Source: a virus. From it: a DNA stretch of 53,338 nt. This document shows, piece by piece, positions 17,471 through 49,570 of this stretch (its first letter is position 1; each line of letters begins with the position of its first letter). Where the stretch lies: IMG/VR virus record IMGVR_UViG_3300031885_000018, positions 1-53,338 of that record, one strand, 5' to 3'. The notes beneath the pieces are model-generated. The model did not search any database. It was not told the DNA's origin and was given only the letters and a program-made list of their open reading frames with translations. The position numbers and the translations under genes were made by a program.

Positions 17471-20400
17471 ATGGCAAAAACATTCCAGTTGACAGCGCAG
17501 CTTAATCTTGCTGCACCCAATAACCTAAAGAGCGTTGTTAGCAACATTCGTAGCCAGCTAGGCGACGTTGATGTTAGGGTTAATGTCAATATGGGTAACG
17601 CCATTAAGAACATCAAAGAAGCTAGAACAGAAATGGAAGCTTTCGGTTTCCAGTCTGGTTTGGCTATCAAGAGATTCGCCGCGTTCTCTCTTGCCACCGC
17701 AGGCATTATAGGTTTCGTCTCCGCGATTAAGAATGGCTTCACAGAAGCTATTAAGTTCGACCGCGAAATGGTTCGTCTAGCCCAGGTTCTAAACACATCC
17801 GTTAAGGGTGTGCGCGAAATCTCTACAGCCGTAGATGAGCTATCTAGGAAGTTCGGTGTTAGCTCAACAGAGCTTCTAGACGTTTCTACTACATTGGCCC
17901 AGGCTGGTTTGTCAGCTAAGGAAACAAAGGTAGCTTTGGAAGCTCTAGCTAAGTCTTCTCTAGCTCCATCCTTCGACAATCTTAAAGATACAACAGAAGG
18001 TGTTATCGCTGCCATGAGGCAGTTTAATCTAGGTGCCCATCAAGTTGAGGCTGCCCTAGGTTCTATTAACTCTGTTGCTGCTGCGTTCGCCGTTGAATCT
18101 GGCGACATTATTACAGCTATTCGTACCACTGGTGGTGTCTTCGCCTCTGCTTCTAAGGGTGTGGCCGAAGGTACGGACGCTCTTAATCAGTTCATCTCAG
18201 TCTTTACATCTGTTCGTCAAACAACTCGTGAAAGTGCTGAATCTATCGCTACTGGTCTACGTACAATTTTTACACGTATCCAGCGCCCTAGAACAATCGC
18301 CTATCTACAAGAGTTTGGTATCGAGCTAAAAGACCTTGAGGGTAAGTTCGTAGGTCCGTATGAGGCCGTTAAGAGACTAAGTAATGGATTGCGCGAACTT
18401 GATAATCGTGACCCTAGGTTCGCCGCTATCACAGAAGAGCTTGGTGGTTACAGACAGCTAAGCAAGATTATTCCTGCTATTCAGCAGTTTGCTGTAAGTC
18501 AGAAGGCTTTAGGTATCGCCGAGGCTGGAACTACATCTCTAACAAGAGATAGTGCCACAGCTCAACAGGCCCTAGCTGTTCAAATTGCTAAGGTTCGTGA
18601 AGAGTTCCTATCCCTAATACGTTCTCTTGCGTCTTCTACACTATTCACAACACTAGCTAAGCAAACATTAAGCATAGCATCTGGATTCATCTCCATTGCT
18701 AAGGCCATAGAACCTATTCTTCCACTACTAACAGTTCTTGCTGGTATCAAGCTTGCATCTGGACTAACACAGTTCTCAGGTGGTTTTTTGGGTGCTATTA
18801 AGAAGGGTGGTGGCGCAGGTGGAGTTGGAGCAGGTCTAGGTGGAATATTAACTGGTCAACAGGCCCGCCCGTTTGCTACAGGTGGTATAGTTCCTGGTGT
18901 TGGTAATACAGACAGCGTTCTAACACGCTTGATGCCTGGAGAATTCGTTGTCCAGAAGTCTGCTGTAGCAGCGATTGGAGAAAAGGCACTACATGGTATT
19001 AACAAGTTCGCCGGTGGTGCTGGTCCATCATACAAGCAGCTATCTGCAAAAAACAAGGGCGTAATTGACCCACAATATATTGCTTCTCTAAGAGCTATGA
19101 AGTCTAGCGACCCTGCTGCATATCAAGCAATAGTAGATGCTTACGAAGGTAGCGCCCCAAATGTCCCAGTAAAAGCTAAGTCAAATTTTAAGTATGGTTC
19201 AAAGCCAGGGTCAAACGACCTAATCGTTGATGGTAGCTACGGTGGTCTATTCTTCCAGCTTGGAACAAATAAGGTTGTCAACTCACTAGTTGGAACAACG
19301 CCGGGCAATCTATCAAAAGAATCACAGGCCGCTATAAGCAGTAAGTTTGGTAAGGTTGGCAAAATCCTTGGTCAGCCATATCAGTTCTTCATCAATAAAA
19401 ACAAGAAACAAGAGTTTGGTGGAATAGCATCAAAGTCATTCGACCAGTCACTAAAGAATATACTAGACTCCCAAGGTGGTGCTGCTTCTGTCTCTGCGTC
19501 TCTTGGTATCAGTGAAGACGAGCTTCTAAAAAGACTTAAGAAGCAAACTGGATATGAACAACTAGCTGGTTCATTGTTTGAATCTTATGTTGGTGTTCTT
19601 GCCGGTCAGGTAAAAGATACTAGTAGAGGTCGTAGCTTCGACTTTAATCCAGTTGGCGCTGGCTTTGAAAAGCTATTTGGTCCTGGCGTAAATAGCATAA
19701 GACATGCTGACGCTAAATATACATCTAATGCTAAATCAAGAAGCTCTATCGTAGAGAAGGCTATTAATACATACCTTGCAGGAGAAGGTTCTGGTATCAA
19801 TGTGTCTCAATTTGGGGCACAGTCTGCTAAAGATAGGTTTGCTGGATTCAAGGCAAAAGACCTAGATATTTTCACAAAGGGTGGAATTCCACATAAGGCC
19901 GGTGGTGGCGGCGGTGATGGTCTAGCTATGGTTATGCCTGGAGAGTTTATCCTAAATGCAAATTCGGCTGGTAAGCTAGGCCCAGAAGCTTTACATACAA
20001 TTAATAATGCACACAAGTATGCTGGTGGTGGATTCTTCGACAGACTATTTGGTAGAAAGCCTCCTATTAAAAGACAGGGTATTCTAGACCTACTTGGTAA
20101 CGCCCCTGGTGTTCGTGGGTATTCTCCTGGTGACTTGAAGCAGAAGTTCAATACAAGCTATAGCGAAGCTCGTTCTGGTGGACAGGAGCAATATGCAGCC
20201 TTTGACCAGAAGCAAGAAAATGATAGAATAAGAGAAGAAGCTAGTCTTATAGCTCGTACTAGAGGCATTCATATTAGACAAGCTACTAAATTAGCTCAGC
20301 AACAATCTAGACTAAATGGTTTCAGACCAGCTCAACAACAAGACCCTCTTAGTGTTGGAGCTACTGACTCACTTAATAGTGCAAAGGACCAGCTTGGTGT

Positions 20401-23400
20401 CAACTATGATAGACTAGCAGTAACACCAACAACAGTAGGTGGTGGAAGAACCGTTGTTACTAAGCCACCTACTAAGCCTGGACTTTTTGCTCGCGCCCGC
20501 GATGCCACAAACTATCTACTTAATCGTAATCAAGAACCTTTGAGCGAAGAAGAGCAGATTCAAAAAGACGCAAAAGATGAGAAGAGAAGTAGGTTTAATA
20601 AAAAGCTTGCTGGAGCAGCACTAGGAGTAACTTTAGCAGCTCCGCTATTAGAGCGTGCTGCTGGTAATAATGCACATGCACAGGGTGCAATTGGAGCCCT
20701 AACTGGAGCTTCTGCTGGAGCTGCTGCTGGTTCAGTATTTGGCCCGGCGGGTACAGCAGTTGGTGGTATTGCTGGAGCTATAGGCGGATTTGTTTCAGCT
20801 TTCAAGGAAGCAAACCTAAAAGTTGCAATGGAGAAGTTAGCTAAGTCAACAGACAAACTAGAAAAGGGGTTTTTGCAATATTCAAAAGGAGAGGGTGGTT
20901 CTCAAAAGGGACTTGCTGAAGATACTCGTAATGCACTAGCTTCCGCTAGAGGATTAGATAAAAAGGGTGCAATTGGCTCTGGTATCACTGGTGCTGCTGA
21001 CCTTTATGGTGGCGGTATTGGTGGACATATTACGTCTGGTATTGTTGGTGTTGGCGCGCTTCTACCAAGCAGTCTTGGTGGGGATGATGCTCGCGCCTCT
21101 ATAAAAGCTAGAGTAGAAGCAGAACAACAACAAAGGTCTTCTGACTACCTACAAAACCGCCAAGGTATCGGTGCTGTTAATGAAAAGTATTTCAGTAGTC
21201 TTGCTGAAAAGGGTAAGATAGAGGAAGTAGGCGGAAGAATAATAGATAGAAACGATGACTATTCTGCTTATTCTGATGTTACGAAATTTGGTGAAGACCA
21301 CAGGGACCAGATTCGCTCTCTTGCCGCAACTGGTGCTAGGGCTGGCGTAAACGCCGATGAAATTACAAGGACTAGAGTAGCCGCAGAGGGTGGTGGATTT
21401 CAGCCAGTTGTGACAGATGATGATGTTTGGTATGGAACACCAGAAGACAAACTTAAAGATAAACAGGGTAGAACCAAAGAAGCGTATGAGGCCGATGTAA
21501 ACAAGGCTGTTGCTGATAAAGAATTTACTCTTGGTAAGATAAGACTAGATGAGTTGCAGGTTCTTGGTAAGTTATCAACAGCAAACAAGAAGGCTGCGAC
21601 AGAGCTAGCTATCTTTAGTGATGAGTTAGAGAAGATAGGCGCTCGTGTTGGAAGGGTTGGTGCTGAGTCAGATAAGAGAGGTATCGGCGTAGAAAATGCG
21701 TTTGCTACTGCTAATAATCAGTTTGGTATAGGTAGGCAGGCTAGTAACCTAGATGTATTTACAAATAACAGAGCTTATAGTCAAGATGAAACCAAGAGTG
21801 CTTTTGCCGGTCTTGGACTTGGTGCCGACGCTACAAGTAGACTTAGTGGAGCTGCCCTATCAACAAAGGCACTACAAGAGAATCTACCACAGGAACTATT
21901 GAAGCTATACTCTGGTGGTACATCACAAGCAGATGTTTCAACAGCTACAGGTGCTAATGATTCTATTAACAAGATACTTAAAGAGCAAGGACTAAGCAAA
22001 GAAAGTCTTCCTAGAGAACTAAGAGATGAAATCACAAGTGCTATTGCTCAACAGACAGAAGAGAATAAGCAGAGTGGTTCACAAAACTCAAGAACATTTT
22101 TTGAGAAAGAGCTTCCAAAAAGACTAGCTTCTATTAATGAGGCTGTGTTTAAGGCTGGAGCTGAACTTCAGAAGGGTCTTGAAACAGCTAATAATACATA
22201 CCTAGCTGGAATCAACCAGTATATTAACCAAAGCTTAAAGGCTACTTCTTCTCTTGCGGCAGCCGACAAGTCAAGAAGTAACAACGAGAACTCGCTAATC
22301 AAACTTACTGGTCGTACACTAACAGAAGACCAGTTTGGCGCTCCAGACTCAGCAGAAATTGATAGGCTAACAGGTGTTAAGGGAAGTGGTGCAAATAGCA
22401 TCATACAAACAATTGGTGGTCTAGATAAAAAGAAGGCTGACCTTAATAGCCAGCTAAGTGGTCTTGATAAAGGTAGCTCAGACTATACAAATAAGAGCCA
22501 AGCTCTACTAGACGCCCTTGCTGGCGTTGAAGAGGGTCTTGGTAATAACATTAGAGCGTTGGAGCTATCAACAGAAGCCAGTGGTAAACTAGCTGGTATT
22601 CAGCAAACACTAGCACAAGAACAAGAGGGTAGAGATAAGGGTAGGGGTCTTGCTGCTCAGGCTAGCGGTAGAAGTAGAACTGAGGTTGCCCAAGGAAGAA
22701 GAGCAGCTCGTAGAGCAGACGAGGTATTTAGCGGTAGAAGAAATGTAAATAGTCTTTCTAGAAGAGAGGCTACCAGTGTTTTTGCGTCAAAGGCAGCAGA
22801 TATTGAAACAATAACAAATGAAGATGAAAAAGAAAAAGCAAAGGCACAGCTTGCTAAATATCAACACAGCTTTAATCTAGCTAATAATCAATATAAGAGT
22901 AGGGCCGAAGCAGAAGCAGCGGAAAAGGGTACTACTGAAAAAGTTCAGATTAGCGCAGGTCAGTTTGGTCAAAGAATTTACAACGGTGGTACTCCCGCTG
23001 AAAGAAAAGCTGCTGCTGAAGCTGGTAGTATATATGATGGTCAAAACACAGGCAAGGACTTCCTTGCTAACAGACAGAAGCCAAAGGGTGTTGATGGCTC
23101 ATTAGCTACGAATCGCGCTAAGGCAATAAAAGATGTGCAAGCTGCCGGTAACAAAATTGGTGAGTTTAGTAACGAGGCGTTTGCCGCCAATGTAAACAAC
23201 CTAAATGCTGCTGCCGATAAGCTTGTTGCACTAAGCAACACAAAGATTAGTCTAGAGGGAACCCACACAGTAAACGTAAACATAACTGGCGGCGACTCCC
23301 TTAAGGATGGTATTGGTCTATTGGTACAGGCAGAGGTTGGAAAAGCTATTAAGGCCCTTAATATGCCTAAAGACCAGCAGATAGAAAACAAACAAGGAAT

Positions 23401-23407
23401 GGCATAA
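17471..23407 (+). CDS. Tape measure protein with embedded nuclease-like domain
   Basis: A 1978-residue protein that sets tail length and fills the tube. Residues 95-200 contain the conserved tape measure core (REISTAVDELSRKFGVSSTE, FDNLKDTTEGVIAAMRQF). Hydrophobic segments lie at about 70-90, 410-430 and in a Gly/Ala-rich stretch near 1045-1110. Two Gly-rich motifs ending MPGEF are at 488-492 and 822-826. Between them, residues about 690-760 hold E704, D724 and D747-A-K749, a spacing that fits a PD-(D/E)XK nuclease fold. The rest is helical. By the usual 1.5 Angstrom per residue the tail would be roughly 300 nm, if nothing is cut off. It overlaps the next gene by one base (TAATG). Confidence 0.9.
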   Translation: MAKTFQLTAQLNLAAPNNLKSVVSNIRSQLGDVDVRVNVNMGNAIKNIKEARTEMEAFGFQSGLAIKRFAAFSLATAGIIGFVSAIKNGFTEAIKFDREMVRLAQVLNTSVKGVREISTAVDELSRKFGVSSTELLDVSTTLAQAGLSAKETKVALEALAKSSLAPSFDNLKDTTEGVIAAMRQFNLGAHQVEAALGSINSVAAAFAVESGDIITAIRTTGGVFASASKGVAEGTDALNQFISVFTSVRQTTRESAESIATGLRTIFTRIQRPRTIAYLQEFGIELKDLEGKFVGPYEAVKRLSNGLRELDNRDPRFAAITEELGGYRQLSKIIPAIQQFAVSQKALGIAEAGTTSLTRDSATAQQALAVQIAKVREEFLSLIRSLASSTLFTTLAKQTLSIASGFISIAKAIEPILPLLTVLAGIKLASGLTQFSGGFLGAIKKGGGAGGVGAGLGGILTGQQARPFATGGIVPGVGNTDSVLTRLMPGEFVVQKSAVAAIGEKALHGINKFAGGAGPSYKQLSAKNKGVIDPQYIASLRAMKSSDPAAYQAIVDAYEGSAPNVPVKAKSNFKYGSKPGSNDLIVDGSYGGLFFQLGTNKVVNSLVGTTPGNLSKESQAAISSKFGKVGKILGQPYQFFINKNKKQEFGGIASKSFDQSLKNILDSQGGAASVSASLGISEDELLKRLKKQTGYEQLAGSLFESYVGVLAGQVKDTSRGRSFDFNPVGAGFEKLFGPGVNSIRHADAKYTSNAKSRSSIVEKAINTYLAGEGSGINVSQFGAQSAKDRFAGFKAKDLDIFTKGGIPHKAGGGGGDGLAMVMPGEFILNANSAGKLGPEALHTINNAHKYAGGGFFDRLFGRKPPIKRQGILDLLGNAPGVRGYSPGDLKQKFNTSYSEARSGGQEQYAAFDQKQENDRIREEASLIARTRGIHIRQATKLAQQQSRLNGFRPAQQQDPLSVGATDSLNSAKDQLGVNYDRLAVTPTTVGGGRTVVTKPPTKPGLFARARDATNYLLNRNQEPLSEEEQIQKDAKDEKRSRFNKKLAGAALGVTLAAPLLERAAGNNAHAQGAIGALTGASAGAAAGSVFGPAGTAVGGIAGAIGGFVSAFKEANLKVAMEKLAKSTDKLEKGFLQYSKGEGGSQKGLAEDTRNALASARGLDKKGAIGSGITGAADLYGGGIGGHITSGIVGVGALLPSSLGGDDARASIKARVEAEQQQRSSDYLQNRQGIGAVNEKYFSSLAEKGKIEEVGGRIIDRNDDYSAYSDVTKFGEDHRDQIRSLAATGARAGVNADEITRTRVAAEGGGFQPVVTDDDVWYGTPEDKLKDKQGRTKEAYEADVNKAVADKEFTLGKIRLDELQVLGKLSTANKKAATELAIFSDELEKIGARVGRVGAESDKRGIGVENAFATANNQFGIGRQASNLDVFTNNRAYSQDETKSAFAGLGLGADATSRLSGAALSTKALQENLPQELLKLYSGGTSQADVSTATGANDSINKILKEQGLSKESLPRELRDEITSAIAQQTEENKQSGSQNSRTFFEKELPKRLASINEAVFKAGAELQKGLETANNTYLAGINQYINQSLKATSSLAAADKSRSNNENSLIKLTGRTLTEDQFGAPDSAEIDRLTGVKGSGANSIIQTIGGLDKKKADLNSQLSGLDKGSSDYTNKSQALLDALAGVEEGLGNNIRALELSTEASGKLAGIQQTLAQEQEGRDKGRGLAAQASGRSRTEVAQGRRAARRADEVFSGRRNVNSLSRREATSVFASKAADIETITNEDEKEKAKAQLAKYQHSFNLANNQYKSRAEAEAAEKGTTEKVQISAGQFGQRIYNGGTPAERKAAAEAGSIYDGQNTGKDFLANRQKPKGVDGSLATNRAKAIKDVQAAGNKIGEFSNEAFAANVNNLNAAADKLVALSNTKISLEGTHTVNVNITGGDSLKDGIGLLVQAEVGKAIKALNMPKDQQIENKQGMA

Positions 23408-24873
23408 TGTCAATAGTAACAATGGTGTATGGAACGTACAACATAAGTCCAGTTCCATTCTTAGCACTAACAAGACAACTACAAACTAAAGCTGATGGCA
23501 CCATAATTGGATGTCTATTTAACGCTAGACTAGATGGTACAATCTATTGTCCTACTGGTGGATTTCCAGCAGTTATAGCTAAACAACAAGACCTAAGACA
23601 AGCATTTCTAACACACGGCCTATTATTTAAGGTCATGTGTGATAGTACGGAATTAATTAAGGCTTATCCTAGAATCGCCGGTCCTATAGATTTCCAAGAG
23701 ACTAGCGATAATTGGGTGTTCTCAACAAAGTATTCCGTTGACCTACAGTGGGATGATGAGCTTGTTCTAAACGAAGCAAGCGGCCTAGTTCCGCCCTATA
23801 TCTCCGATACACAAGAATCATGGAGCGTAGAGTTTGTTGAAGATAAGGCTAAGTATGAGTTTACGTTGTCTGGGTCTATAACTGATGCTAATCCATATCA
23901 AGTAAGAATAACACATGCTATTTCTGCTGTGGGTAAAAAGCACTATACTTCAGGTATATTAGATAAAGAAGCATGGGAGCAGGCTAGGGAGTATATTGTT
24001 CCTCGTCTTGGATATAATGGTTCATACTTAGGTGCTTCTGGTGTATTAAATATAAGCAGCGGTAACTTTACTGCGTTTAATCATGTTAGACAAAATGTGG
24101 TAGATATATCTGCTGGAAGCTACTCTGTAACCGAGAATTGGATTGCTATCAATCCATCTGGAAGCGGCGTGGCCGGTAGGGCTTTAGAGGATTTTACTGT
24201 TGACGTTCGTAAGGGCATTGAATCGGATATAACGACCGTATCTATACAAGGAAGCATACAGGGTCTTGAGACAAGAAGCTATGGAACAAATCCAGGTGAC
24301 TTCACAATCTCAGAGACAAAATATGCTGCGGCCTCTGGTTATTGGGCTGCCATTAACACCACAAGAATCTATCCAAGGGCACAGTTATTTGCTGGTTCGG
24401 GTCTAACTCGTCCAATTAATACAACCCCTGCAAGTAGAGTCGTGGGTCATAATCCAGTTAATGGACTTATTACATATTCATATGAATATAATGATAGGCC
24501 ATCTAATTGTATTACTGGCGCAATAACAGAAAGCATAATGGTAACAGATAATAATCCTACTGATGTATTTGCTGAAATAGGTATTCCAGGTAGAAGTGCT
24601 GGACCAATTCTTCAGGATATGGGTACAATAACTTCTGCTAAGAGAGAGGTTAGTATTGAGGCGATAATGGCACCAGCAACAGGTTGTGCTTCAGTTTCGG
24701 GGTTATTTATAAACAATCCGAGAACTCAAGTAGCTACTATAATAAACCTATTCTCTGGCGACCTAACATCGACACATACACAAGTATTCAAACATGCGGA
24801 CTCAGAAACATGGGATGTGAAAACAGGAAGATACACAAGACAGGTTGGATGGACGTATCAACAAGGTTGCTAA
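23407..24873 (+). CDS. Distal tail / minor tail protein
   Basis: A 488-residue beta-rich protein immediately after the tape measure, the standard position of the distal tail protein that forms the ring between tube and tip. It is rich in Gly, Thr, Ser and aromatic residues with repeated strand-turn patterns (VFSTKYSVDLQWDDELVL, RITHAISAVGKKHYTSG) and contains no enzymatic motif. The C-terminus (TSTHTQVFKHADSETWD...TRQVGWTYQQGC) resembles tail proteins seen next to tail hub genes. The next gene begins nine bases on. The assignment is by position and composition. Confidence 0.55.
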   Translation: MSIVTMVYGTYNISPVPFLALTRQLQTKADGTIIGCLFNARLDGTIYCPTGGFPAVIAKQQDLRQAFLTHGLLFKVMCDSTELIKAYPRIAGPIDFQETSDNWVFSTKYSVDLQWDDELVLNEASGLVPPYISDTQESWSVEFVEDKAKYEFTLSGSITDANPYQVRITHAISAVGKKHYTSGILDKEAWEQAREYIVPRLGYNGSYLGASGVLNISSGNFTAFNHVRQNVVDISAGSYSVTENWIAINPSGSGVAGRALEDFTVDVRKGIESDITTVSIQGSIQGLETRSYGTNPGDFTISETKYAAASGYWAAINTTRIYPRAQLFAGSGLTRPINTTPASRVVGHNPVNGLITYSYEYNDRPSNCITGAITESIMVTDNNPTDVFAEIGIPGRSAGPILQDMGTITSAKREVSIEAIMAPATGCASVSGLFINNPRTQVATIINLFSGDLTSTHTQVFKHADSETWDVKTGRYTRQVGWTYQQGC

Positions 24874-24882
24874 GGGTGATTA

Positions 24883-27800
24883 ATGGCGTATAATGCGTGT
24901 TCCGGCGTAAGCAGAAACATATTCGGACCACCGGAACAAACACTGTTCTTGGGCTGTAGCATTTCGTCATTCAGTGTAAATGTTGGATGGAATGAACAAG
25001 TTGGCGAAGTCACTGTTTCACTTGCACAAGATACGTGTCCAGTTCCAACTAGCGGTAACCCAAAGGTTTACTATGATAGTAACCTTCAGCGCCAAACAAC
25101 AATGGCTGCCGACCCAGGCTTTATTGAGCCAAATATAGGAGCGCCGGTATATTTTCGTGCTGGTGACTTTGAGTGGTGCGGTCTTGTTCAGAACTTCACA
25201 TCATCAACATCATTGGGCGGAAAGCCAGTCTATACGGTTAAGCTTATAGACCCCCGCCAAATTCTAGATGGAGCGCAAATTATAGTTGGTGAATATGCCG
25301 ATACGGTGTCTCCAACCCCTAATCTAATCAACGCTTACGCATATGCCGAATCATTTGGAACCTCCTCGCCGCCCAACGTAATAGCTGGTGCCACATTTGG
25401 AAGTCCAGCCGGTGGATTTGGTGGCTCTCTATCTAATGATAATGGTATGCCCTGGTACGTTATTAAGGAGGCGGTAAGCGTACTAACATCTTCCACTCCA
25501 AGAATAGTAAATAATTACTCTCCATATGGAAGACTAACATTTAGGTCTGGTTATGGTACAATGCCAAGTGGTAGTCCAAGCCTTACTGTTGGTTATGGTA
25601 TTATTCCTGGCGATAGCCTATTAGGTCAGTCTCTATATACTGTTGACCTAAGCGAAATGCCCCAGGTTCCTAATTATTGGAGAATCGCCGGTACATCTGT
25701 TAGCTTAATGGAAGCCATAAGCCAGGTATGTTCTGACGCCTGCTCAGACTACTACGTAGAGTTGGTTCCAACCTATGGGTATGGCGGCATACAAAATATC
25801 ATCAAGATAAGAACAGCTAGTAGAGTAGCGGTGCCAACTCTTGGTGCAATTCAAAGCTTTGTAGATAACGCTGGTAATGCTGTTCAGTTCAGCAAGGGCT
25901 TAGAGATGAGAAATGAGGTTGTGTCCTCGTTTGTCGTAGGTGGTAATGTTCAAAGTATCTATCAAGCTGAACAAGATGACAGTCTAACAAAAACGTCTTG
26001 GGACATTATATCCCCGTTCTTTGGGTTAGACATATACGGTAATGTACTAGAGACAAGTGCGGAGAGTGGTATATGGCATTTCCAGGCTAATCTTCTAGAC
26101 CTAAATGCCCAGCTTAATTTCCCTCTACCTATTTCTACAGCGAAGATAACAGAATACGAACTTCTTGCTGCACAAGCTGGATATGATACATGGTTGATGC
26201 TTGGTGAACAAAATGCTTTTGACTTTGAAACAGTCAGAGCTATGAATCACACAGAAGACTCAATCTTTAATCCAGAGTTGATTGAAAGAAACAGTAATGC
26301 CGGTCTACCAAACCCACCAGCTATCGACCTACTAACACTAGGTGCTGGTGCTGTATTTCCAAGCGGCGATACGAATGCAGATAATGTCATTCTTACTAGT
26401 GCTTTTGACAGAGACTCACAAACAGTATTCTCTTTTGTCTCCGCGATTGCTAGTCAGTTCTATGGTAGAAAGTTTATGGTTAGACTACCATATACTACAG
26501 GTAAGATTGACCCAGACTCACAGCAAAACAATGGTAGACCAGTAATCAAAACTACTGAGGTTCCAAGCGATGGTGGCTGGACAGACGAAGACAATGTTAT
26601 TGGTTTGCAGACACAGTCTTCATATCTAGATTTCTTTACTCTACCAGATAATAGGCTTGGATGTTTTGTTGGTCTTGCTATAACAGACGCGGGTGTAGAC
26701 GTTTCTAGCCTAAACCCAGAAGACTATTGGGTAACAACAAACCAGAAGACTGGAGCAGACTGGGTATATATTAGGGCTAATGTAGAACCAGATATTGTCT
26801 ATTTGGATAAGAATACACTTTATTCTCCGCGTGTCATAGTAACATTAGACCAACCAGTAACAAGTCTTTCTTCAGACAACTATCTAGACGGGTTGCCAGC
26901 CCATATGGCAGCTATGGAAGTATACTATTCTAATAAGTCACCTGCGCTTAAAGCTAAGATGAGCGAAGCACTTATTAATAATTCAGTAGGCACTCAGTCT
27001 GTATGGAATGAGTTTCCGCCTCGTTCAATAGTTATACATGCTGCCGCCGTACCAATTCTAAGCAATGTACAAACATATGGTCCTTGGCTTAGCCCGATGA
27101 CCGTACACGGTATCACAAAGATAGAAAAGGATGGGGGTCTAGTACCTTGGGAGTATGGTAGCACATACAACATGAATCTTGTTGGTTCTACTAGGGCTCT
27201 TAACGAAACAGCCAGCTCAATGCAGTTTGGTGAGACTGGAAGCGTAGAAGTTCCTGGTTATCCAACACTACCAATCGGTGCTGAGCTTGGTGCATACAAC
27301 GGCGGATTCTTTGCTGGTGGTCAACATCTATTTGAAACAAGAAGTATTGGTTCTGGTACTGGTGGCGTAACAAACGATAACTATTGCTATGTAGACTCTG
27401 GTGGTCCTTGGACTGGTATCTATGGTCCAAACATCACATCTATCGGCGTAGAGTTTGGTTTGAACGGCGTAACAACCAACTACGCAATGAGAACTTTCTC
27501 TCCTGCGTTTGGTAGGTTTAGCAAGTTAAACTCAGAAAGGCTTAAGCAGTTTGGTCAGCAGGGCCTACGTATGCAGAAGGCTTTCAGGTTTGCCAAGCTA
27601 ACACAAGCTAGAAGAACTGGTGGAATAGATAGAGGAAATGCCGTACAAGCTATTGGTGCCAGAGAAGCTAAGTCAAAACTTAAGAAGGGTAAGCTAAGAC
27701 ATACGGACTCACCGCATGAAATCTTGGTCGGTCAGACAATACCTTGGTTCAGCGGCGATGGTATGGATGGATATACATCTAGAAGCATTGTTGCTACCGA

Positions 27801-30800
27801 AGAAGCTGCGGACCTTGCAAAAGAATTCTCAGCTAACTACGACAAGAAGGCATTCGCAAGTATGGATGCGTTCTTCCGCCCAGTTTCTATGTATGGTGAC
27901 GGTGACTTGCCTCGCTATATGGTTCCATCAATTCCTATCACTGAGGCAGATGACTTTGCTATCCTAGATAATGATTATTCTTCTGCTGGTGCTATGCCTC
28001 CTCTATTGGTGCCAAGTGGAAATAATACCGGTTCATATACAGATGCCTATAAGTTAAGCGCAACATCACAGTTCTTAAACCCATACAATAGCAATCCGGC
28101 ATATATGCACGGTAGCGGTAGTGGTCACGACATAACTGTTCTAGGTCACGGTTCTGTCGTTCCTTCAAGCATGAATATGTATGTTGAGGGCGACGGTACA
28201 CATCCGCACTATCATGATGACTATAGAACGCTAGCCTGGAAGGGTCCACTTATTCTAACACAGTGGGGCCTTGATACAAATGGCAAGCCAGTTCCAAACT
28301 TCGCAGATTCAGAAGATGCTATAGTAAATTCTGGTGAATTTGCAATGAGCGGACTACAAGATAGGTATCTACCTAACTGGTTGACTAAATCGCACACATG
28401 GCCGGTTGCTCCAGTAGACCTAAGACTAGATAGAAAGAGGGGTGTTTGGGTATCGCCCCCATCTCATAAGCTAGTTATTGGTCTTGCCCTAGAAAGAATT
28501 TCTGCTCATGGTCAGGGCTTGTGTCAACTTGTTGAAGGTAATCTACTTTATGATGCCAGTGGAAACAAGATACTTCCCAAAGCTATCCCGTGTTGGTGCG
28601 CACCTAGATTCGTCTTGACAGAAAAAATTGGAGATACAATTGCTTCTGGAACCGTACTTATCGCTTACTATGAAGCTGATAGGGATGAGTATTGGGCTCT
28701 CGAACGCACTGGTGGAAGAAATGATACTACGAGTTCATCAACCACAACTTCTGGCCCAACAACATCAACTACATATAATCCACTTATTACATGTGGTGTT
28801 AGCAACTGTAAGTGGACATGGAGTGGTACTGCCTGGGATAAGACAGAGAATAATTGTGGTGGAACAACAACATCTACAACGGCAGCTCCTAGTGGTACAA
28901 CGACAAGTACAGCAGCTCCTAGCGGTACAACAACCAGTACAGCAGACCCATGTGGATGCCCAACAACTACAAGTACGGCTGCACCTAGCGGTACAACAAC
29001 AAGTACGGCTCCACCCAGCGGTACAACAACAAGTACAACTTCTGGTCCAACAACAACTACTACAGCAGCACCATGTGTTTGCTCGTATCCAAGTTACTGT
29101 GGGCTTATTGTTGGCGAATGTACATATACATCCTGCATAGGTTCTGGTAGCGCTCCAACTGAAACTTCGTGCCCATCAACAACTACATCTACAACAACTC
29201 CAGCGCCAACAGGTTCTACTACATCGTCAACAACATCTACAACTCCAGACTGTAGCTCTACACCTGCACCACCAACAACAGAAGACCCGGCAGCAAATTG
29301 TGGTGGTAGCTGTTCTTGGTATGGTAACCCAATTCTTGGTTACTGGGTTCAGCAAAGCGACTGCGGGGACGCTATTGATTGCCTTGGATGGGATGCGTGT
29401 GGTAACTGTGCATATCCAAGCGCCCCATATGTTAAGTGCGGAAACACATCTACCCCCTGTATAGTAGGGCCAAAACCAGGATGCCCATCAAGCCCAGGTG
29501 GTGGATGCGGCGGATATTACACATATTGGTGCATTTTTGGAACATGGGTTGTAGATATGGCAAATAGCACAGGATGTACTGGTATAGGTGCGGTATGTCA
29601 GTCGTGTGACCCTCCAGCACAATGCTATGGGTGTACTACATTCTATACAATTAGTGCTGGTTGTCAAGCTGGCGGCGCTCCAAATGATTCACAGTGTAAA
29701 CCATGTGTTCCAGTAAGAATGGGTTGCAGGGGTGTTGAATGTCCAGACTGTCCAGGAACAACAGCAGACCCATGTAATCCAGAGACACCTACATCCCCAA
29801 TTCCACCAACAACAACAACCGCAAATCCATGTGGTCCTGGTTGCTGGTGGGAAGCTGATAGTAGTTTAGATTGGGTATTCCAATATGGCGGATGTAGCGG
29901 TGGGTGTGCATGTTACGAACCAGCGGGTAGTCCGTTGGATACGTGTGAGACTGCGTACACAGTGTGTATGGATATTACTACGCCTCCACCGACAACTACG
30001 CCTCCAACAACTACAGTACCTCCAACAACAACACCACCTACGACAACAACAACTAATCCGTGGTGGTGTTCAAATTCTGGCTGTAGCCCATATGGTTCAG
30101 AAGGTGGTGTTTGCTTCCAGGCTACTATTGCAGTAGCAACTGGAGACGCATTGTTATGTGCAGGCCCATTCGGAACCGAAGCTGAGTGTCATGCGACATT
30201 CTGCAAGCTTACAACTACTACAACTACGTCAGCTAAGCCGTGGTGGTGTATAACTGAAAATTGTGGACTAGGTATTGGTGGCTCATGTCTTGCGCTAACA
30301 GAACTTGAGGCTATTTATGATTATCCGTATACACTATGCGATGGTCCATTTGACACTGAGAGCGGATGTTTGTATGATTCTATGTGCGCAATAACCACAA
30401 CCACAACAGGTGCGCCGTGGTATTGTTGTAATATTTATGGTGGTGCGTCTTGCAATCCATTAAATAATAGATGTATACAAACTCCATGCGCTGACGACGG
30501 CATACCTTCAGATGATTGTAACCCTGGAACAACATATACTTCAGAGTCAGGTTGTATAGCAGCGTGTAATTTAACAACGACATGTAGCCCATCCGAACAT
30601 GCAACGGCCTGTTCGACCTACGTAACATATGGATGTACCCTAATATGTAATGCAAGCAATGGCTGGGAATATCAACATGCAGATTGTATATCAACACGTT
30701 GCGATACCCAGGGCTGTTACTGTCAATCTACCCCAGAAACAGATGCTATGGTTGCTAGTGGAATATGTCACGCTGGCGTAGATGCAAACATATACCTGGG

Positions 30801-30840
30801 TTGTAGGTCAACACCAACATCTACAACAGCAGCGCCATAA
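24883..30840 (+). CDS. Large tail tip protein with mucin-like and Cys-rich C-terminus
   Basis: A 1985-residue protein. Residues 1-1280 are a globular tail hub/tip-like region (SFSVNVGWNEQVGEVTVSL, then a strand-rich fold, and KGRRHTDSP-like basic stretch near 945). From about 1281 to the end the composition changes: Thr/Ser/Pro linkers (TTTSTTAAPSG repeats) alternate with Cys-rich segments. Three similar modules start at P1726, P1786 and P1845 with PWWC or PWYC and end with GPF-TE-x2-C-x4-C or similar. The protein ends STPTSTTAAP. Phage tip proteins bind host receptors; the linkers look like classic O-glycosylation substrates. Disulfides or metal binding in the modules is inference. Confidence 0.75.
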   Translation: MAYNACSGVSRNIFGPPEQTLFLGCSISSFSVNVGWNEQVGEVTVSLAQDTCPVPTSGNPKVYYDSNLQRQTTMAADPGFIEPNIGAPVYFRAGDFEWCGLVQNFTSSTSLGGKPVYTVKLIDPRQILDGAQIIVGEYADTVSPTPNLINAYAYAESFGTSSPPNVIAGATFGSPAGGFGGSLSNDNGMPWYVIKEAVSVLTSSTPRIVNNYSPYGRLTFRSGYGTMPSGSPSLTVGYGIIPGDSLLGQSLYTVDLSEMPQVPNYWRIAGTSVSLMEAISQVCSDACSDYYVELVPTYGYGGIQNIIKIRTASRVAVPTLGAIQSFVDNAGNAVQFSKGLEMRNEVVSSFVVGGNVQSIYQAEQDDSLTKTSWDIISPFFGLDIYGNVLETSAESGIWHFQANLLDLNAQLNFPLPISTAKITEYELLAAQAGYDTWLMLGEQNAFDFETVRAMNHTEDSIFNPELIERNSNAGLPNPPAIDLLTLGAGAVFPSGDTNADNVILTSAFDRDSQTVFSFVSAIASQFYGRKFMVRLPYTTGKIDPDSQQNNGRPVIKTTEVPSDGGWTDEDNVIGLQTQSSYLDFFTLPDNRLGCFVGLAITDAGVDVSSLNPEDYWVTTNQKTGADWVYIRANVEPDIVYLDKNTLYSPRVIVTLDQPVTSLSSDNYLDGLPAHMAAMEVYYSNKSPALKAKMSEALINNSVGTQSVWNEFPPRSIVIHAAAVPILSNVQTYGPWLSPMTVHGITKIEKDGGLVPWEYGSTYNMNLVGSTRALNETASSMQFGETGSVEVPGYPTLPIGAELGAYNGGFFAGGQHLFETRSIGSGTGGVTNDNYCYVDSGGPWTGIYGPNITSIGVEFGLNGVTTNYAMRTFSPAFGRFSKLNSERLKQFGQQGLRMQKAFRFAKLTQARRTGGIDRGNAVQAIGAREAKSKLKKGKLRHTDSPHEILVGQTIPWFSGDGMDGYTSRSIVATEEAADLAKEFSANYDKKAFASMDAFFRPVSMYGDGDLPRYMVPSIPITEADDFAILDNDYSSAGAMPPLLVPSGNNTGSYTDAYKLSATSQFLNPYNSNPAYMHGSGSGHDITVLGHGSVVPSSMNMYVEGDGTHPHYHDDYRTLAWKGPLILTQWGLDTNGKPVPNFADSEDAIVNSGEFAMSGLQDRYLPNWLTKSHTWPVAPVDLRLDRKRGVWVSPPSHKLVIGLALERISAHGQGLCQLVEGNLLYDASGNKILPKAIPCWCAPRFVLTEKIGDTIASGTVLIAYYEADRDEYWALERTGGRNDTTSSSTTTSGPTTSTTYNPLITCGVSNCKWTWSGTAWDKTENNCGGTTTSTTAAPSGTTTSTAAPSGTTTSTADPCGCPTTTSTAAPSGTTTSTAPPSGTTTSTTSGPTTTTTAAPCVCSYPSYCGLIVGECTYTSCIGSGSAPTETSCPSTTTSTTTPAPTGSTTSSTTSTTPDCSSTPAPPTTEDPAANCGGSCSWYGNPILGYWVQQSDCGDAIDCLGWDACGNCAYPSAPYVKCGNTSTPCIVGPKPGCPSSPGGGCGGYYTYWCIFGTWVVDMANSTGCTGIGAVCQSCDPPAQCYGCTTFYTISAGCQAGGAPNDSQCKPCVPVRMGCRGVECPDCPGTTADPCNPETPTSPIPPTTTTANPCGPGCWWEADSSLDWVFQYGGCSGGCACYEPAGSPLDTCETAYTVCMDITTPPPTTTPPTTTVPPTTTPPTTTTTNPWWCSNSGCSPYGSEGGVCFQATIAVATGDALLCAGPFGTEAECHATFCKLTTTTTTSAKPWWCITENCGLGIGGSCLALTELEAIYDYPYTLCDGPFDTESGCLYDSMCAITTTTTGAPWYCCNIYGGASCNPLNNRCIQTPCADDGIPSDDCNPGTTYTSESGCIAACNLTTTCSPSEHATACSTYVTYGCTLICNASNGWEYQHADCISTRCDTQGCYCQSTPETDAMVASGICHAGVDANIYLGCRSTPTSTTAAP
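30058..30579 (+). repeat. Three tandem 60-residue Cys-rich modules at tail tip C-terminus
   Basis: Modules begin PWWC, PWWC and PWYC at residue spacing 60 and 59 and are joined by runs of Thr. Units 1 and 2 share C-x5-C, G-[GS]-x-C, L-C-x-GPF-x-TE and a final C-x4-C; unit 3 is more diverged. The DNA copies are not identical. Confidence 0.8.
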
Positions 30841-30842
30841 CC

Positions 30843-30871
30843 TTGGCAGCATGATATGATTAGGATATAAT
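30843..30871 (+). promoter_or_regulatory. Sigma70-type promoter before glycosyltransferase gene
   Basis: TTGGCA (30843-30848) and TATAAT (30866-30871) are separated by 17 bp, close to the host consensus, in the 78-nt gap after the tail tip gene. It would let the plus-strand glycosyltransferase genes be transcribed by host RNA polymerase without the late sigma factor. Confidence 0.72.
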
Positions 30872-30918
30872 AGCGTTAAGGAATTTCTTGAACGGAAAGA
30901 GAAAATAAGGTAAGAAAA

Positions 30919-32922
30919 ATGAGACCAAAACTAACAATAGGAATGCCAATGTATCATGATTATCATGGTGCTTGGTTCTCTCTACAAAGCCTGCGTCTAA
31001 ATGAAAATCTTGAAAACGTAGAGCTAATAGTAATTGATAATGACCCTACATATGCTGGCAGCAATCTTTTGAAGCCAAGTATGATTAGTGCATTTAAGCA
31101 CCATACTGCTGGCACAAGGTATATTGAATATACAGATGCAGTAGGTCCAGCTAATACAAAGAACAGGGTTTTTGAAGAAGCCTCTGGAGAAATAGTTCTA
31201 TGTATAGACTCTCATGTTCTATTTAGGCATGGAACAATTGGTAGGCTACTGGAATGGTATGATGCTAATCCAGAAAGTATGGACTTGATTAATGGGCCGC
31301 TAATCTATGATGACCTAAATAACATCTCTACTCACTTCGACGATAGCTGGAGAGGGGAGATGTGGGGCACATGGGGAAGCGCATGGGAGGCCCCAGACGG
31401 CACTGTTTTCTCTGTTAGGGATATAGGAGATAACACTCTTGAGTGTTTCGACCTAGCTAACCCAGAGATTAAGTTGCCATTTAAGGGTCAGTTCGTAGGT
31501 CACGAGCAGCTATTAATAAATAATGGTTGTCGTAAGCTTGGACTACTCGACTCAGATGAGTTTGAGATTCCTGGTAACGGTTGTGGATTGATTTCTTGCC
31601 GCAAAGACGCTTGGCTCGGATTTAATAAAAATTTCCGTGGCTTTGGGGGCGAGGAAATGTATATACATCAGAAGTTCAGAAACGCGGGCCAAAAAGTTTT
31701 GTGTCTTGGCTTTTTGAAATGGCTTCATAGGTTTGGTCGCCCAGAAGGTGTAGCGTTTCCACTTAGAAGATGGGACAAGGTTCGTAACTATGTGATAGGA
31801 CATCAAGAGTTAGGAATTCCACTAGATAGAGTCTATGACCACTTTGTTAAGAGTGGCCTAATGAAAGAAGGAGAATGGGAAGCTATGCTAAGCGACCCTA
31901 TTGCTATGACAGAACCACAAGCAACAAATAAAGAAAACATTTTAGATGTTTTCCATGCTGTTAAATCCATACCTAGAGATTTGAATCAACACATGGATAA
32001 ATTGAACTCTCTATGTAAGCACGCCACAAAAGTAACAGAATTCTCAGAGAGAAGGGAGTCTCTTGTTGCGTTTCTTTCTGAACCCAATGTTAAGAAGATT
32101 GTATCCTATAATACCGAGGGCGACAACCCAGAGGTAAAGAAGATGGTTGATATGCGCAAAGACCTGGAAATCACCATAGAGAAAAAGAGGTCCGCCGATG
32201 TTCCTTCTATAGATGAAACAGACCTATTGTTCATTGACCAGAGACATACATACGCCGATGTTTATAGGGAGCTATCAACTTATGGACCTAAGACATCAAG
32301 GTTCATTGTTCTCCACGATACTGTCTTGTATGGTATGCAGGGTGACGATGGTGGCCCAGGTATAGGTGCCGCATGTAAGGACTTTATGAAGGAACACAGA
32401 GAATGGTCTGTATGCGCCCATATTCCTGCACAGCACGGCCTAACAGTTCTATGTAAAGTTCCTAGCGATAAACCAGACGTTCCTCTAAGACCTTGGTTAA
32501 ATGGTGGCCCAGGTACAGAACTTGGTGCTATTCTTGAATCTCTAGGTATTAAGTCAAGCCCAACATGCGACTGTAAGGCTAAGGCCCGCGAGATGGACAA
32601 GTGGGGTATTGAAGGCTGTGAAACAAACAGAGAACAGATTATTCAGTGGATTAGAGATAATCAAGTTCGTTGGGGCTGGAAGGATAAGGTCGAAGCTGCC
32701 GCTGCTAGTGGAACTGAAATAGCAACAATTGGAGATGCGGAAGAGGGTGTGGTTGAAGAGCCAACAAAGAAGATGACACTAAGAGAGAAAGCTGCTATTG
32801 TTCTAAAGACGATAACAACTGGCTTAGTATTCAAGCTTAATGTTAGCGACCCAATTCCAAGTTTGGTAGACGAAGCTATTAGAAGGGCCAAGATAAAGGA
32901 CGCTAATGGCGAGTACGTATAA
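30919..32922 (+). CDS. Three-domain glycosyltransferase with GalNAc-transferase-like motifs
   Basis: A 667-residue protein. Residues 1-300 are a GT-A fold glycosyltransferase: KLTIGMPMYHDY start, VIDND, GPANTKNRVFEEA, the metal-binding D97-S98-H99 and a GFGGEEMYIH motif (GGE at 243-245), then LKWLHRFGRPEG. The DSH and GGE motifs are those of polypeptide GalNAc-transferases (GT27). Residues about 360-540 resemble a class I methyltransferase (DLLFIDQRHTYADVYREL at 435). The C-terminal part holds C550, C552 and C567 in a small domain, followed by helices. It stands right after the Thr-rich tail tip gene and behind a sigma70-type promoter. Probable role: adding sugar to a phage or host target; the substrate is unknown. 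Confidence 0.78.
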   Translation: MRPKLTIGMPMYHDYHGAWFSLQSLRLNENLENVELIVIDNDPTYAGSNLLKPSMISAFKHHTAGTRYIEYTDAVGPANTKNRVFEEASGEIVLCIDSHVLFRHGTIGRLLEWYDANPESMDLINGPLIYDDLNNISTHFDDSWRGEMWGTWGSAWEAPDGTVFSVRDIGDNTLECFDLANPEIKLPFKGQFVGHEQLLINNGCRKLGLLDSDEFEIPGNGCGLISCRKDAWLGFNKNFRGFGGEEMYIHQKFRNAGQKVLCLGFLKWLHRFGRPEGVAFPLRRWDKVRNYVIGHQELGIPLDRVYDHFVKSGLMKEGEWEAMLSDPIAMTEPQATNKENILDVFHAVKSIPRDLNQHMDKLNSLCKHATKVTEFSERRESLVAFLSEPNVKKIVSYNTEGDNPEVKKMVDMRKDLEITIEKKRSADVPSIDETDLLFIDQRHTYADVYRELSTYGPKTSRFIVLHDTVLYGMQGDDGGPGIGAACKDFMKEHREWSVCAHIPAQHGLTVLCKVPSDKPDVPLRPWLNGGPGTELGAILESLGIKSSPTCDCKAKAREMDKWGIEGCETNREQIIQWIRDNQVRWGWKDKVEAAAASGTEIATIGDAEEGVVEEPTKKMTLREKAAIVLKTITTGLVFKLNVSDPIPSLVDEAIRRAKIKDANGEYV

Positions 32923-33508
32923 TCCAAAGATTGCGGTGATGGCACCGATATATCGCTACTATCCCGTAATCATTGGTTCTATGCTTGCTCAAAAACATAA
33001 GAACTGGGAACTTAACGTAATACACGATGGACCAGAAGACTCTAATAATCTAGATATTAAACATGCGTTTCAAACACCAGACCCAAGGGTTCATTGTTAC
33101 GCAACAGAGAAAAGGTTAAATAGTTGGGGTCACCCATTACGCCGACAGTGGCTAAAGGATATAAAACCCTGTACTGATATTGACCTAGTTGTAATTACAA
33201 ATGCGGACAACTATCATAATCCAGTTTACTTAGAAAGACTGTGTAAACCGTTTTCAGACAAGAAGGTGGTAGCCACATACGCTGAGTTCAACAGTACGCA
33301 CCACCATTCATATGGGATATTTACGAATAAACTAGCATGCTCTGCTATTGACATAGCGGCTCTTATGTTTAGAAAAGATGTTGCGTGTGAGATTGGATGG
33401 CAGTCTGACGAGTATTTTGCAGACTGGGTATTTATAGATGGGATTATGAAAAAATACGGTAAGGAAAACTTCAGGAAGGTTGATGGACACTTATTCACAC
33501 ACAACTAA
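32906..33508 (+). CDS. Small GT-A glycosyltransferase (GT2-like)
   Basis: A 200-residue compact GT2-like enzyme: N-terminal PKIAVMAPIYRYYPVIIGSM, nucleotide-binding NVIHDGPEDS, a DxD-equivalent VITNADN at about residue 97, then a C-terminal acceptor region with DWVFIDGIM and the final His in LFTHN. It overlaps the preceding gene by 17 nt, with AAGGAC upstream of the start. At 200 residues it is near the minimum for a GT-A fold. The donor and acceptor are unknown. Confidence 0.7.
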   Translation: MASTYNPKIAVMAPIYRYYPVIIGSMLAQKHKNWELNVIHDGPEDSNNLDIKHAFQTPDPRVHCYATEKRLNSWGHPLRRQWLKDIKPCTDIDLVVITNADNYHNPVYLERLCKPFSDKKVVATYAEFNSTHHHSYGIFTNKLACSAIDIAALMFRKDVACEIGWQSDEYFADWVFIDGIMKKYGKENFRKVDGHLFTHN

Positions 33509-33516
33509 GGAACGTA

Positions 33517-34254
33517 ATGAATATTATAGCACTATGCCCCACATTCAGGCACCCCGACCTACTAGCTAATAGTATCGCTATGTGGGAAAGACAAGACTAC
33601 CCCGCCGACAAAAGGTTCCTAATCATCTTAGATGATGGGGGCAACTTCAATTATCAAGAAGGGCCTAATTGGGTAATAATACCTTCTGCTCACCGTCTAC
33701 CGTCATTGCCAATTAAGTACAACGCCATGCTCGATATTGCGAAAATCTCAGAGAAGAAACATGACGCTTTTCTGGTTTGGGAGGACGACGACATCTATTT
33801 AAAAAACTACGTCTCACAACACGCAGAAACTTTAAAGATGCACGAACTGTCGAAGCCAGAGCGTGTAATGACCGATTGTGGCCCAGACAAGTCCCTCAAG
33901 GAAGAAGGCTCCGGTGGTAGATTCCATTCTACTCTAGGTTTTCGTAAGGAGCTAATAGAGAGGGTGGGCGGTTGGCCTCTAACTAAGAGGGCTGATTTCG
34001 ACCTTCAGTTTATAGACATACTACAGCGCAAAGCTAAGAGTATCGGCGAGTGGAAGGATGTAGCCCAGATTCCATTTGTATACTGTTGGCACACGGGACA
34101 GGCTCATGGACAGTGGACTATGAAGAATCAAGAGGATGAAACGTGGTATGATAGGGCAGATGAAGCCTATAAGGATAGAAGAGTAATAGGTACTATTAAT
34201 CCTTCTCTAAATCCAAGAACAGTAGAATTTTTGGCTAAATTAGAGGGCGAATAA
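33517..34254 (+). CDS. GT-A glycosyltransferase with DDD motif
   Basis: A 245-residue protein with NIIALCPTFRHPDLLANSIAM at the start, LIILDDGGNF, and FLVWEDDDIYL, in which the acidic triplet is the likely metal and sugar-nucleotide site. ADFDLQFID and YCWHTGQAHG later match the acceptor side and the C-terminal His of GT2 enzymes. AAGGAA precedes the ATG, eight bases after the previous stop. It is the third consecutive glycosyltransferase after the tail tip gene. Confidence 0.72.
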   Translation: MNIIALCPTFRHPDLLANSIAMWERQDYPADKRFLIILDDGGNFNYQEGPNWVIIPSAHRLPSLPIKYNAMLDIAKISEKKHDAFLVWEDDDIYLKNYVSQHAETLKMHELSKPERVMTDCGPDKSLKEEGSGGRFHSTLGFRKELIERVGGWPLTKRADFDLQFIDILQRKAKSIGEWKDVAQIPFVYCWHTGQAHGQWTMKNQEDETWYDRADEAYKDRRVIGTINPSLNPRTVEFLAKLEGE

Positions 34255-47373: not shown

Positions 47374-48023
47374 TTTGAGAACGCCCCTTTAAATGTTACC
47401 TTTTCCGCAGTCTTCCTGTGTAGCTTCATGAATCTGATTATCATTTCCGCTGAGTCCTTAACGTCTTGTAGAGCATCGTGGGCGTTGTCTTTCGACATAC
47501 CAAAGAAATCTCTCATGTTGTCCATAGCGTAGCTTGTTATATCAGCGCTATTCTCAAACCACATGAAGAACACATCCAACAAGTCTATCTTATCTCTTGG
47601 AGAAAATAGAGCCTTGCCGTCACCAAACTTTTCGTGATACCTACTTACGATTGGCATATCAAACTTTTCGATGTTACAACCAGCACGAATGGGCGCACTG
47701 TGCATAGTCTGTCTATCTTGCTTTGTGTGATGTACCCTTAGATACTTCAAGAATTCAGGCCATATAACCCTTGGGTCTGGATACTTAGACCACATATCAA
47801 GAACCTGTTCTGGTTCCATCTTAAGTCTTCTTGCGTGCCACTCAAGGGTTGACTGGTTAATCGTAATCGGGTCTGGACGCATGAACAAATTAAGCTCTGA
47901 CCCAGGAATGATTGTTAGGTTTCTTGGGTCAATAGCTATAGCAGCTAGCTGAACCGCACTACACTCTTCTGGATTTACACCAGTGGTTTCAGTATCAAAA
48001 ACAACGATGGTTTTGAAATTCAT
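47370..48023 (-). CDS. DEDDh 3'-5' exonuclease (epsilon / DnaQ-like)
   Basis: A 217-residue exonuclease: Exo I FDTETTG at residues 9-15, Exo II GCNIEKFDMPIV near 115-126, Exo III NAHDALQDVKDSAEM near 179-193 (His-x4-Asp). This is the fold of the proofreading subunit of DNA polymerase III. It directly precedes the C-terminal polymerase half and overlaps it by four bases, so the gene order itself suggests a proofreading partner. The E. coli-type beta-clamp tail is absent. Its own job may also include RNA primer or RNA trimming. Confidence 0.9.
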   Translation of the reverse strand: MNFKTIVVFDTETTGVNPEECSAVQLAAIAIDPRNLTIIPGSELNLFMRPDPITINQSTLEWHARRLKMEPEQVLDMWSKYPDPRVIWPEFLKYLRVHHTKQDRQTMHSAPIRAGCNIEKFDMPIVSRYHEKFGDGKALFSPRDKIDLLDVFFMWFENSADITSYAMDNMRDFFGMSKDNAHDALQDVKDSAEMIIRFMKLHRKTAEKVTFKGAFSK

Positions 48024-49391: not shown

Positions 49392-49570
49392 AGTTTCTCA
49401 ACCTCGTAATCACAGTTAAATAGGGCCGCTATGTTAGTTTCCACTTCTTGATTAGCGTTGGAGTGTGATATGCAACCACAGTTACCAACCCTAACAAGTT
49501 CTGTTACCACCCACGTTACACCAGCATAGATAAATCTATCGCCTATTTCAAGGGTACAAAAACTAATCAT
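49388..49570 (-). CDS. Small hypothetical protein between polymerase half and UDG
   Basis: A 60-residue protein (MISFCTLEIGDRFIYAGVTW...) starting at ATG 49570 in an 8-nt ATGATTAG overlap with the polymerase N-half stop. The TTG 18 nt earlier is unlikely. It reads like a small beta-barrel (short strands separated by turns, with CGCISHSN). No function is recognised. Its tight overlaps on both sides show it belongs to the operon. Confidence 0.7.
   Translation of the reverse strand: MISFCTLEIGDRFIYAGVTWVVTELVRVGNCGCISHSNANQEVETNIAALFNCDYEVEKL

Follow-up and report, generated by a model that had tools for sequence, protein, structure and literature searches.

A threonine-rich tail-tip gene followed by a polypeptide GalNAc-transferase-like gene: a putative self-glycosylating phage tail

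Can a phage write sugars on its own tail? The question is raised by the virus record IMGVR_UViG_3300031885_000018, analysed here from position 1 to position 53,338 (53,338 bases, henceforth the window), in which a tail gene encoding long Thr-rich linkers is followed at once by a glycosyltransferase gene. A first-pass annotation had proposed that the enzyme acts on this Thr-rich neighbour. The proposal is supported by gene order, by the way in which the enzyme tracks Thr-richness, by covariation and by the convergence of at least three enzyme families; it remains unproven, neither glycan nor modified site having been measured. We hold with good confidence that the Thr-rich tail-tip protein is the acceptor of the 667-residue enzyme, and that the phage O-glycosylates its own tail.

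The tail-tip protein and the enzyme encoded behind it

The plus strand of the window carries the tail module and the minus strand the replication genes (Table 1). The labels 'hub' and 'tip' come from the place of the gene after the tape measure gene rather than from a fold, and receptor binding has not been shown. Neither the tip protein nor the 667-residue enzyme has a PHROG match, and the N-terminal part of the tip found no counterpart in viral contigs, the search patterns being too specific.

Table 1. Features of the window, with the evidence on which each assignment rests
Feature	Position	Strand	Evidence or comment
Tape measure protein (context)	17471..23407	+	PHROG tail length tape measure
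Tail gene before tip (context)	23407..24873	+	homologue precedes hub gene in L027
Tail-tip gene, 1985 aa, proposed acceptor	24883..30840	+	hub-like N-terminal part fused to Cys-rich, Thr-linker ('mucin-like') C-terminal part
Thr/Cys-rich C-terminal region, residues 1263-1985	28669..30837	+	about 139 of the protein's 225 Thr
Thr-rich tract (NDTTSSSTTTSGPTTSTTY)	28720..28776	+	composition
Thr-rich tract (NCGGTTTSTTAAPSGTTT)	28852..28905	+	composition
Thr-rich tract	29011..29079	+	composition
Thr-rich tract	29158..29250	+	composition
Thr/Pro-rich tract	29791..29820	+	composition
Thr/Pro-rich tract (TTPPPTTTPPTTTVPPTTTPPTTTTT)	29971..30069	+	composition
Thr-rich tract	30193..30243	+	composition
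Thr-rich tract	30379..30423	+	composition
Sigma70-type promoter-like site, gap before transferase gene	30843..30871	+	TTGGCA-17-TATAAT, 11/12, consensus match only
Glycosyltransferase gene, 667 aa	30919..32922	+	Pfam Glycos_transf_2 2.7e-10; AlphaFold model pLDDT 90.9
Catalytic domain, residues 1-331, polypeptide GalNAc-transferase-like GT-A fold (predicted)	30919..31911	+	model vs PDB
DSH (D97, H99) metal/donor motif	31207..31215	+	D and H invariant 47/47
FGGEE motif, residues 242-246	31642..31656	+	F242, G243, G244, E246 invariant 47/47; E245 46/47
H270, proposed metal ligand	31726..31728	+	invariant 47/47; role inferred from pp-GalNAc-Ts
O-methyltransferase-like domain, residues 341-520	31939..32478	+	8c9v Z 17.4
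Second, GT2-like gene; possible glycan-extending enzyme	32906..33508	+	Glycos_transf_2 E 1.2e-4, 22.5 vs cut-off 23.3
Third operon gene	33517..34254	+	family recurs downstream of transferase
MazG	48023..48361	-	strand opposite to tip and transferase, with replication genes
dNMP kinase	52724..53266	-	strand opposite to tip and transferase, with replication genes

The Thr-rich linkers that had been reported in the tip are indeed there, as eight tracts between residues 1280 and 1847, in the C-terminal third of the protein only. Pooled, they make up about 166 residues (T 75, P 25, S 20, A 9, G 8), and the protein satisfies, at the protein level, the mucin-like (PTS-rich) criterion of Pro/Thr/Ser-rich tracts. 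All four Thr codons are used in the tracts in about the same proportions as outside them (ACA 45/75 inside vs 89/150 outside), and the composition is therefore not that of a DNA microsatellite. No other gene of the window has Thr-rich tracts, the densest 30-residue stretch of the tip reaching 53% Thr as against 27% in the runner-up. The tracts act as linkers that join Cys-rich modules, and the entire protein contains 83 Cys; that the region 28669-30837 is so rich in Cys while being made in the bacterial cytoplasm is a puzzle, disulfides or metal binding being unexplained.

The extreme C-terminus of the protein, ...RSTPTSTTAAP, has its counterpart in a near-identical phage (L004, transferase 94% identical), where the tip ends in ...RSTPTTTTPAP despite divergence of the surrounding tip sequence. 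In a related phage, L027, the tip is split in two: a separate 923-residue hub-like gene matches residues 17-891 of the window's tip, and the first part of a Thr/Cys-rich gene of 951 residues matches residues 927-1262. We can therefore understand the window's protein as the fusion of a hub with a mucin-like protein, the latter being encoded by a gene of its own elsewhere. Its C-terminal region is related to Thr/Cys-rich genes found at the same place in other phages (phmmer 1e-9 to 1e-16).

The transferase gene starts 79 bases after the tip gene. It had been placed behind a sigma70-type promoter of its own; a site that fits the consensus at 11 of 12 positions does lie in the gap, but the promoter scan as a whole stays near shuffle level (3 found vs 2.3). 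The DSH and GGE motifs that had drawn attention to the enzyme are both present, their residues being conserved among 47 family members, and every one of these members matches Glycos_transf_2 at E <= 0.01 (the window's enzyme scoring 40.8 bits, above the curated cut-off of 23.3). It is in the predicted structure that the likeness to polypeptide GalNAc-transferases (pp-GalNAc-Ts), previously inferred from motifs, is borne out. In a Foldseek comparison of the AlphaFold model, built from 46 sequences (mean pLDDT 90.9), with the PDB, all 50 matches listed are polypeptide GalNAc-transferases. In a VIA-align comparison the 29 best entries all belong to the same group (Z 19.6-23.4), with alignments that cover 250-270 residues at 2.8-3.6 A, within model residues 1-331, the first structures of another kind being a Leptospira transferase (19.1) and RmlT (18.6). 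At the level of sequence profiles the family's match to GalNAc-T10 is marginal (E 0.0068), and other GT2-type enzymes score higher.

In the Gal/GalNAc-T motif (WGGE...H) the phage enzyme has F in place of W; the equivalence of its DxH and WGGE...H motifs with those of solved enzymes is our assumption, made from the motif rather than from a residue-level structural superposition. The ricin-type lectin domain is missing, there being no Pfam lectin match and residues 341-520 being O-methyltransferase-like, with a conserved but unusual motif I (VTEFS-RRES). Short members of the family stop after the catalytic domain and so are also without a C-terminal lectin domain. A profile of the C-terminal half of the family found no match among PDB sequences. 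A single-sequence PDB search with the enzyme gave just a hydrolase match, discarded as spurious. On the strength of the model, the protein looks like a pp-GalNAc-T and probably works like one, catalysis being an inference, and we do not claim membership of GT27.

Two further GT-A genes had been announced downstream. The expectation is borne out only in part: the next gene (32906-33508) matches Glycos_transf_2 just under the Pfam cut-off, and the one that follows (33517-34254) has neither a Pfam family above cut-off nor a PHROG match. Relatives of the latter lie one to four genes downstream of the transferase in 18 of the 51 representative loci, two or more downstream genes being available in 44. 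At locus L006 a gene that by eye resembles sulfotransferases (7224-7985) lies between the Thr-rich gene and the transferase, and sulfation of the glycan is a possibility there.

On the other strand, the MazG and dNMP kinase genes that had been pointed out were both found, while the count of about nine sugar-related genes was too generous: three GT1-type genes and one nucleotidyltransferase are supported by the libraries. The minus-strand sugar-gene region also holds a homing/HNH endonuclease-like gene (36385-37176; PHROG 559, E 3.8e-12). DNA polymerase III alpha is present as two open reading frames (45670-47373 and 49563-51464), separated by exonuclease, MazG, GNAT and uracil-DNA glycosylase genes.

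Thr-rich genes and transferases as recurrent neighbours

When viral contigs were scanned with the alignment of the catalytic domain, 445 relatives were found, and the best 80 of these 445 were reduced at <70% identity to 51 viral loci, the window included. With a Thr-rich gene defined by a 30-residue stretch with at least 40% Thr, the pairing suspected from the window alone recurs: the gene at -1 is Thr-rich in 35 of 49 non-redundant loci, compared with 9 of 659 genes elsewhere (-2 left out), the values being 6/47 at -2 and 1/48 directly downstream. Gene calls based on the longest open reading frame pick the wrong frame beside Thr tracts (as at L013, L017 and L021), and a frame-free scan was therefore used as well. 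It places a Thr-rich open stretch within 4 kb upstream in 40/48 loci and downstream in 1/41, with none on the reverse strand upstream (0/48); around an unrelated GT4 family, also taken from the window, the same scan found no Thr-rich neighbour in 60 loci. No tree-based correction for relatedness was applied to these counts. The rule has its exceptions (L043, L044, L069, L071, L076 and L084), among which L043, L044, L069 and L084 have no Thr-rich gene nearby; L083 and L040 fall slightly below the threshold.

What recurs at these loci is not a single protein. Once the Thr tracts are masked, 26 of the 41 Thr-rich neighbours cluster in a single group, with Cys-rich modules of the window's type, and the other 15 are singletons, some of which (L062, L056) are largely Thr/Ser and devoid of Cys-rich modules. 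As BLAST may overlook distant homology, this number of families is an upper bound; no homology being detectable outside the group of 26, what the enzyme follows, as far as sequence comparison goes, is Thr-richness rather than one protein family. The form of the enzyme varies with its partner: long enzymes, which carry the methyltransferase-like part, pair with Cys-rich acceptors 28 to 1, and short ones with other acceptors 10 to 1 (Fisher p 1.4e-7, phylogeny uncorrected).

The reverse test starts from the Thr tract. An exact DNA pattern, eleven Thr followed by Ala-Ala-Pro, brought at least 119 new loci out of the viral contigs. The window's enzyme family occurs in 13 of those listed, always on the same strand and 85-3095 bases downstream; 60 control loci matched in total length have no member of it. 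Among the matches listed, 93 loci have a downstream gene, and in 28 of these the +1 position is occupied by a family of about 305 residues. Taken together the two families count, in the loci listed, 44 matches at +1 to +4 vs 1 at -1 to -6, and neither turned up when 1205 control genes were searched by HMM. The 305-residue family has no Pfam match, and its model (pLDDT 95.5) has a GT-A fold nearest to GT8 (glycogenin Z 14.9, LgtC 14.3). An initial idea that it resembles plant peptidyl Hyp/Ser transferases was confirmed neither by Pfam nor by PDB sequence search; the fold search points to GT8, and we claim no more than that. In ten further loci, again among the matches listed, PF11397 (GT60-like) proteins stand at +1 to +3; PF11397 includes GlcNAc-transferases that act on Skp1 and on parasite mucins. 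A recognised transferase is thus downstream in at least 54 of the 93 listed loci, near-identical contigs not having been removed. In the remaining ones the sequence is too short or the genes are of other kinds, so that some Thr-rich phage genes have no visible transferase partner. As read from these gene neighbourhoods, at least three glycosyltransferase families converge behind Thr-rich phage genes. Just downstream of some of these genes lie 2OG-Fe(II) oxygenase or radical SAM-like genes (L131:5103-5675, L167:8948-9520, L089:1865-2911), possibly for further modification of residue or sugar.

Cultured phages can be consulted too. With tblastn at E 0.001, neither the window's family nor the enzyme of L046 matched anything in 50,697 phage records; the GT8-like family is present in 74 of these. 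Of the 17 cultured-phage loci that were read, 16 have a poly-Thr or Thr-rich tract in the 1.5 kb before the GT8-like gene, and in several this tract forms the C-terminus of a protein annotated as major tail or major capsid protein: the major tail protein of phiFL1A ends in TTTTTSTTTTTTSSTTTTTTTQASSK, the major structural protein of Lactococcus 1706, which has ten Thr in a row close to its end, in GVTTTTTTTTTTHHD and the major capsid protein of Enterococcus 4995_1 in TTTTTTKPTTTTTTTQA. The one exception, bIL285, has its Thr tail on a protein further downstream, at the position of the major tail protein. Since the Thr-tailed proteins are annotated virion subunits, the hypothesis can be tested at once in laboratory phages. 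In XacN1, also a cultured phage, the 1.5 kb before the GT60-like gene contain no Thr-rich stretch. Several cultured phages of Gram-positive hosts have their poly-Thr extension in a different reading frame, which overlaps the major tail or capsid gene or follows it (L349:3123-3936, L355:2164-2926, L360:2229-2931; behind the major capsid gene in L351 and L356), an arrangement that looks as if programmed frameshifting gave Thr tails to some of the subunits.

Bacterial and archaeal genomes gave 103 matches to the window's family. Loci with the gene layout of the window are found in Planctomycetota assemblies (L266, Pirellulales, on a 478-kb contig; L273, L280, L317), a lead for the host and no proof of it. 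A Thr-rich stretch lies upstream of 21 of 65 relatives in bacterial assemblies; given this and the viral members without a Thr-rich neighbour, the family may have other acceptors. Chromosomal relatives are often adjoined by small proteins that by eye look like PqqD (L293, L292, L306, L337, L323), and small, apparently secreted Thr/Pro-rich proteins are encoded near some of them on the opposite strand (L325 at -1, L335 at +2).

Proposed self-glycosylation and its alternatives

The process may be pictured as follows. The 667-residue enzyme would be made beside the tip gene and, in the host cytoplasm, would move a sugar from a nucleotide-sugar donor to Thr (and Ser) of the linkers, either ahead of tail assembly or while it proceeds. 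The Cys-rich modules would then be joined by stiff stalks covered in sugar, and the fused methyltransferase-like domain, unexplained as yet, might, together with the one or two transferase-like genes that come next, decorate the first sugar or build on it. Thr as acceptors, timing, sugar and benefit are all inferred; for the last, protease resistance, spacing or hydration of the tip, and shielding from inactivation could be envisaged. That the sugar is GalNAc is only a tentative guess, somewhat doubtful, and a judgement rather than a result.

Phage glycosyltransferases that alter the glycans of the host surface are well known, and it could be supposed that the enzyme and the genes that follow it modify capsule, LPS or cell-wall glycan against superinfection, adjacency to the tip being an operon convenience by which receptor-binding and receptor-changing genes travel together. 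GT2 is a broad family, to which all 47 members have their Pfam match, and the GT1-type genes of the other strand would suit such a role. Yet this supposition predicts neither a pp-GalNAc-T-like fold nor Thr-rich neighbours without shared homology, nor GT8-like genes behind major tail and capsid genes with Thr tails, none of which is a receptor gene; moreover, the GT4 control loci lack Thr-rich neighbours. We consider it unlikely. Glycosylation of phage DNA, with hypermodified bases and with MazG and the dNMP kinase in the pathway, is scarcely credible: both genes are there, but they sit on the other strand among the replication genes, at a distance of some 15 kb or more; neither a hydroxymethylase nor any other gene for hypermodification was found among the genes scanned; and an enzyme for DNA would not track Thr-rich structural genes.

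It might also be that the Thr tracts are flexible, unmodified spacers, a role that T-rich linkers can play, and that the neighbour glycosylates another part of the tip, such as the Cys-rich modules, or another virion protein. The covariation of these modules with the long form of the enzyme would agree with this; the partners of the short form in L062 and L056, being mostly Thr/Ser tracts without any such module, would not, and we give the idea very little credence. Glycosylation of the Thr-rich protein itself remains our preferred reading. Extended beyond the window, it becomes one of convergent 'phage mucins', in which tail-tip, tail-tube and capsid proteins bear Thr-rich tails or linkers and each is served by a dedicated glycosyltransferase encoded next to it, from at least three families (pp-GalNAc-T-like, GT8-like, GT60-like), and in which protein-bound glycan coats are common in uncultivated and several cultured phages; this seems to us reasonably likely.

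Known systems and what the pairing would mean

Virion glycosylation by phages is not new. Che8, Corndog and Myrna, all mycobacteriophages, encode transferases that glycosylate their capsid and tail-tube proteins, and glycans are reported at the C-termini of these subunits (Freeman et al., 2023, cited in PMC12363180 and PMC12619734). The likeness lies in a phage-encoded glycosyltransferase, here linked to a tail gene, with no virion glycan shown. The differences are that the proposed acceptor of the window is mucin-like, that the enzyme gene lies beside it and that its model resembles pp-GalNAc-Ts, whereas the capsid and tail-tube C-termini of Che8, with 6 and 3 Ser/Thr respectively among their final 40 residues, are not rich in Thr. 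For the acceptor, the best functional analogue, by analogy alone, is CST1 of the Toxoplasma cyst wall, with Thr-rich repeats glycosylated by pp-GalNAc-Ts (PMC5225312), and Toxoplasma GalNAc-T3 is among the best structural matches of the enzyme model. With GT27 the phage enzyme would share the predicted catalytic fold, the DxH and GGE/H motifs and a Thr-rich acceptor; it differs in its 12-17% identity, in having an O-methyltransferase-like domain instead of the lectin domain, in being cytoplasmic and in a donor still unidentified. GT60-type polypeptide GlcNAc-transferases (PF11397), behind Thr-rich genes in 10 other loci listed, would be a parallel solution and not the window's enzyme; nor is GT8 (glycogenin, LgtC), which provides the fold of the 305-residue family, the acceptor of which is inferred from gene order only.

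Our searches of the open-access literature brought up no account in which a Thr-rich phage protein is paired with an adjacent transferase. Virion glycosylation is documented for a few mycobacteriophages; the Thr-rich variant proposed here is apparently far more widespread than has been described, the pairing recurring in dozens of diverse phages, and many phages probably sugar-coat their own particles. If this is true, Thr-rich glycosylated tails on virion proteins would be widespread, and gene order would give a simple rule for finding the enzymes; examples would already be present in cultured phages that infect Lactococcus, Lactobacillus, Staphylococcus and Enterococcus. The loci would also provide candidate O-glycosyltransferases for Thr-rich peptides that need no secretory pathway. 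For the phages themselves, the finding would bear on the low level of annotation of tail proteins, and on the resistance of the particles to proteases and to immune recognition.
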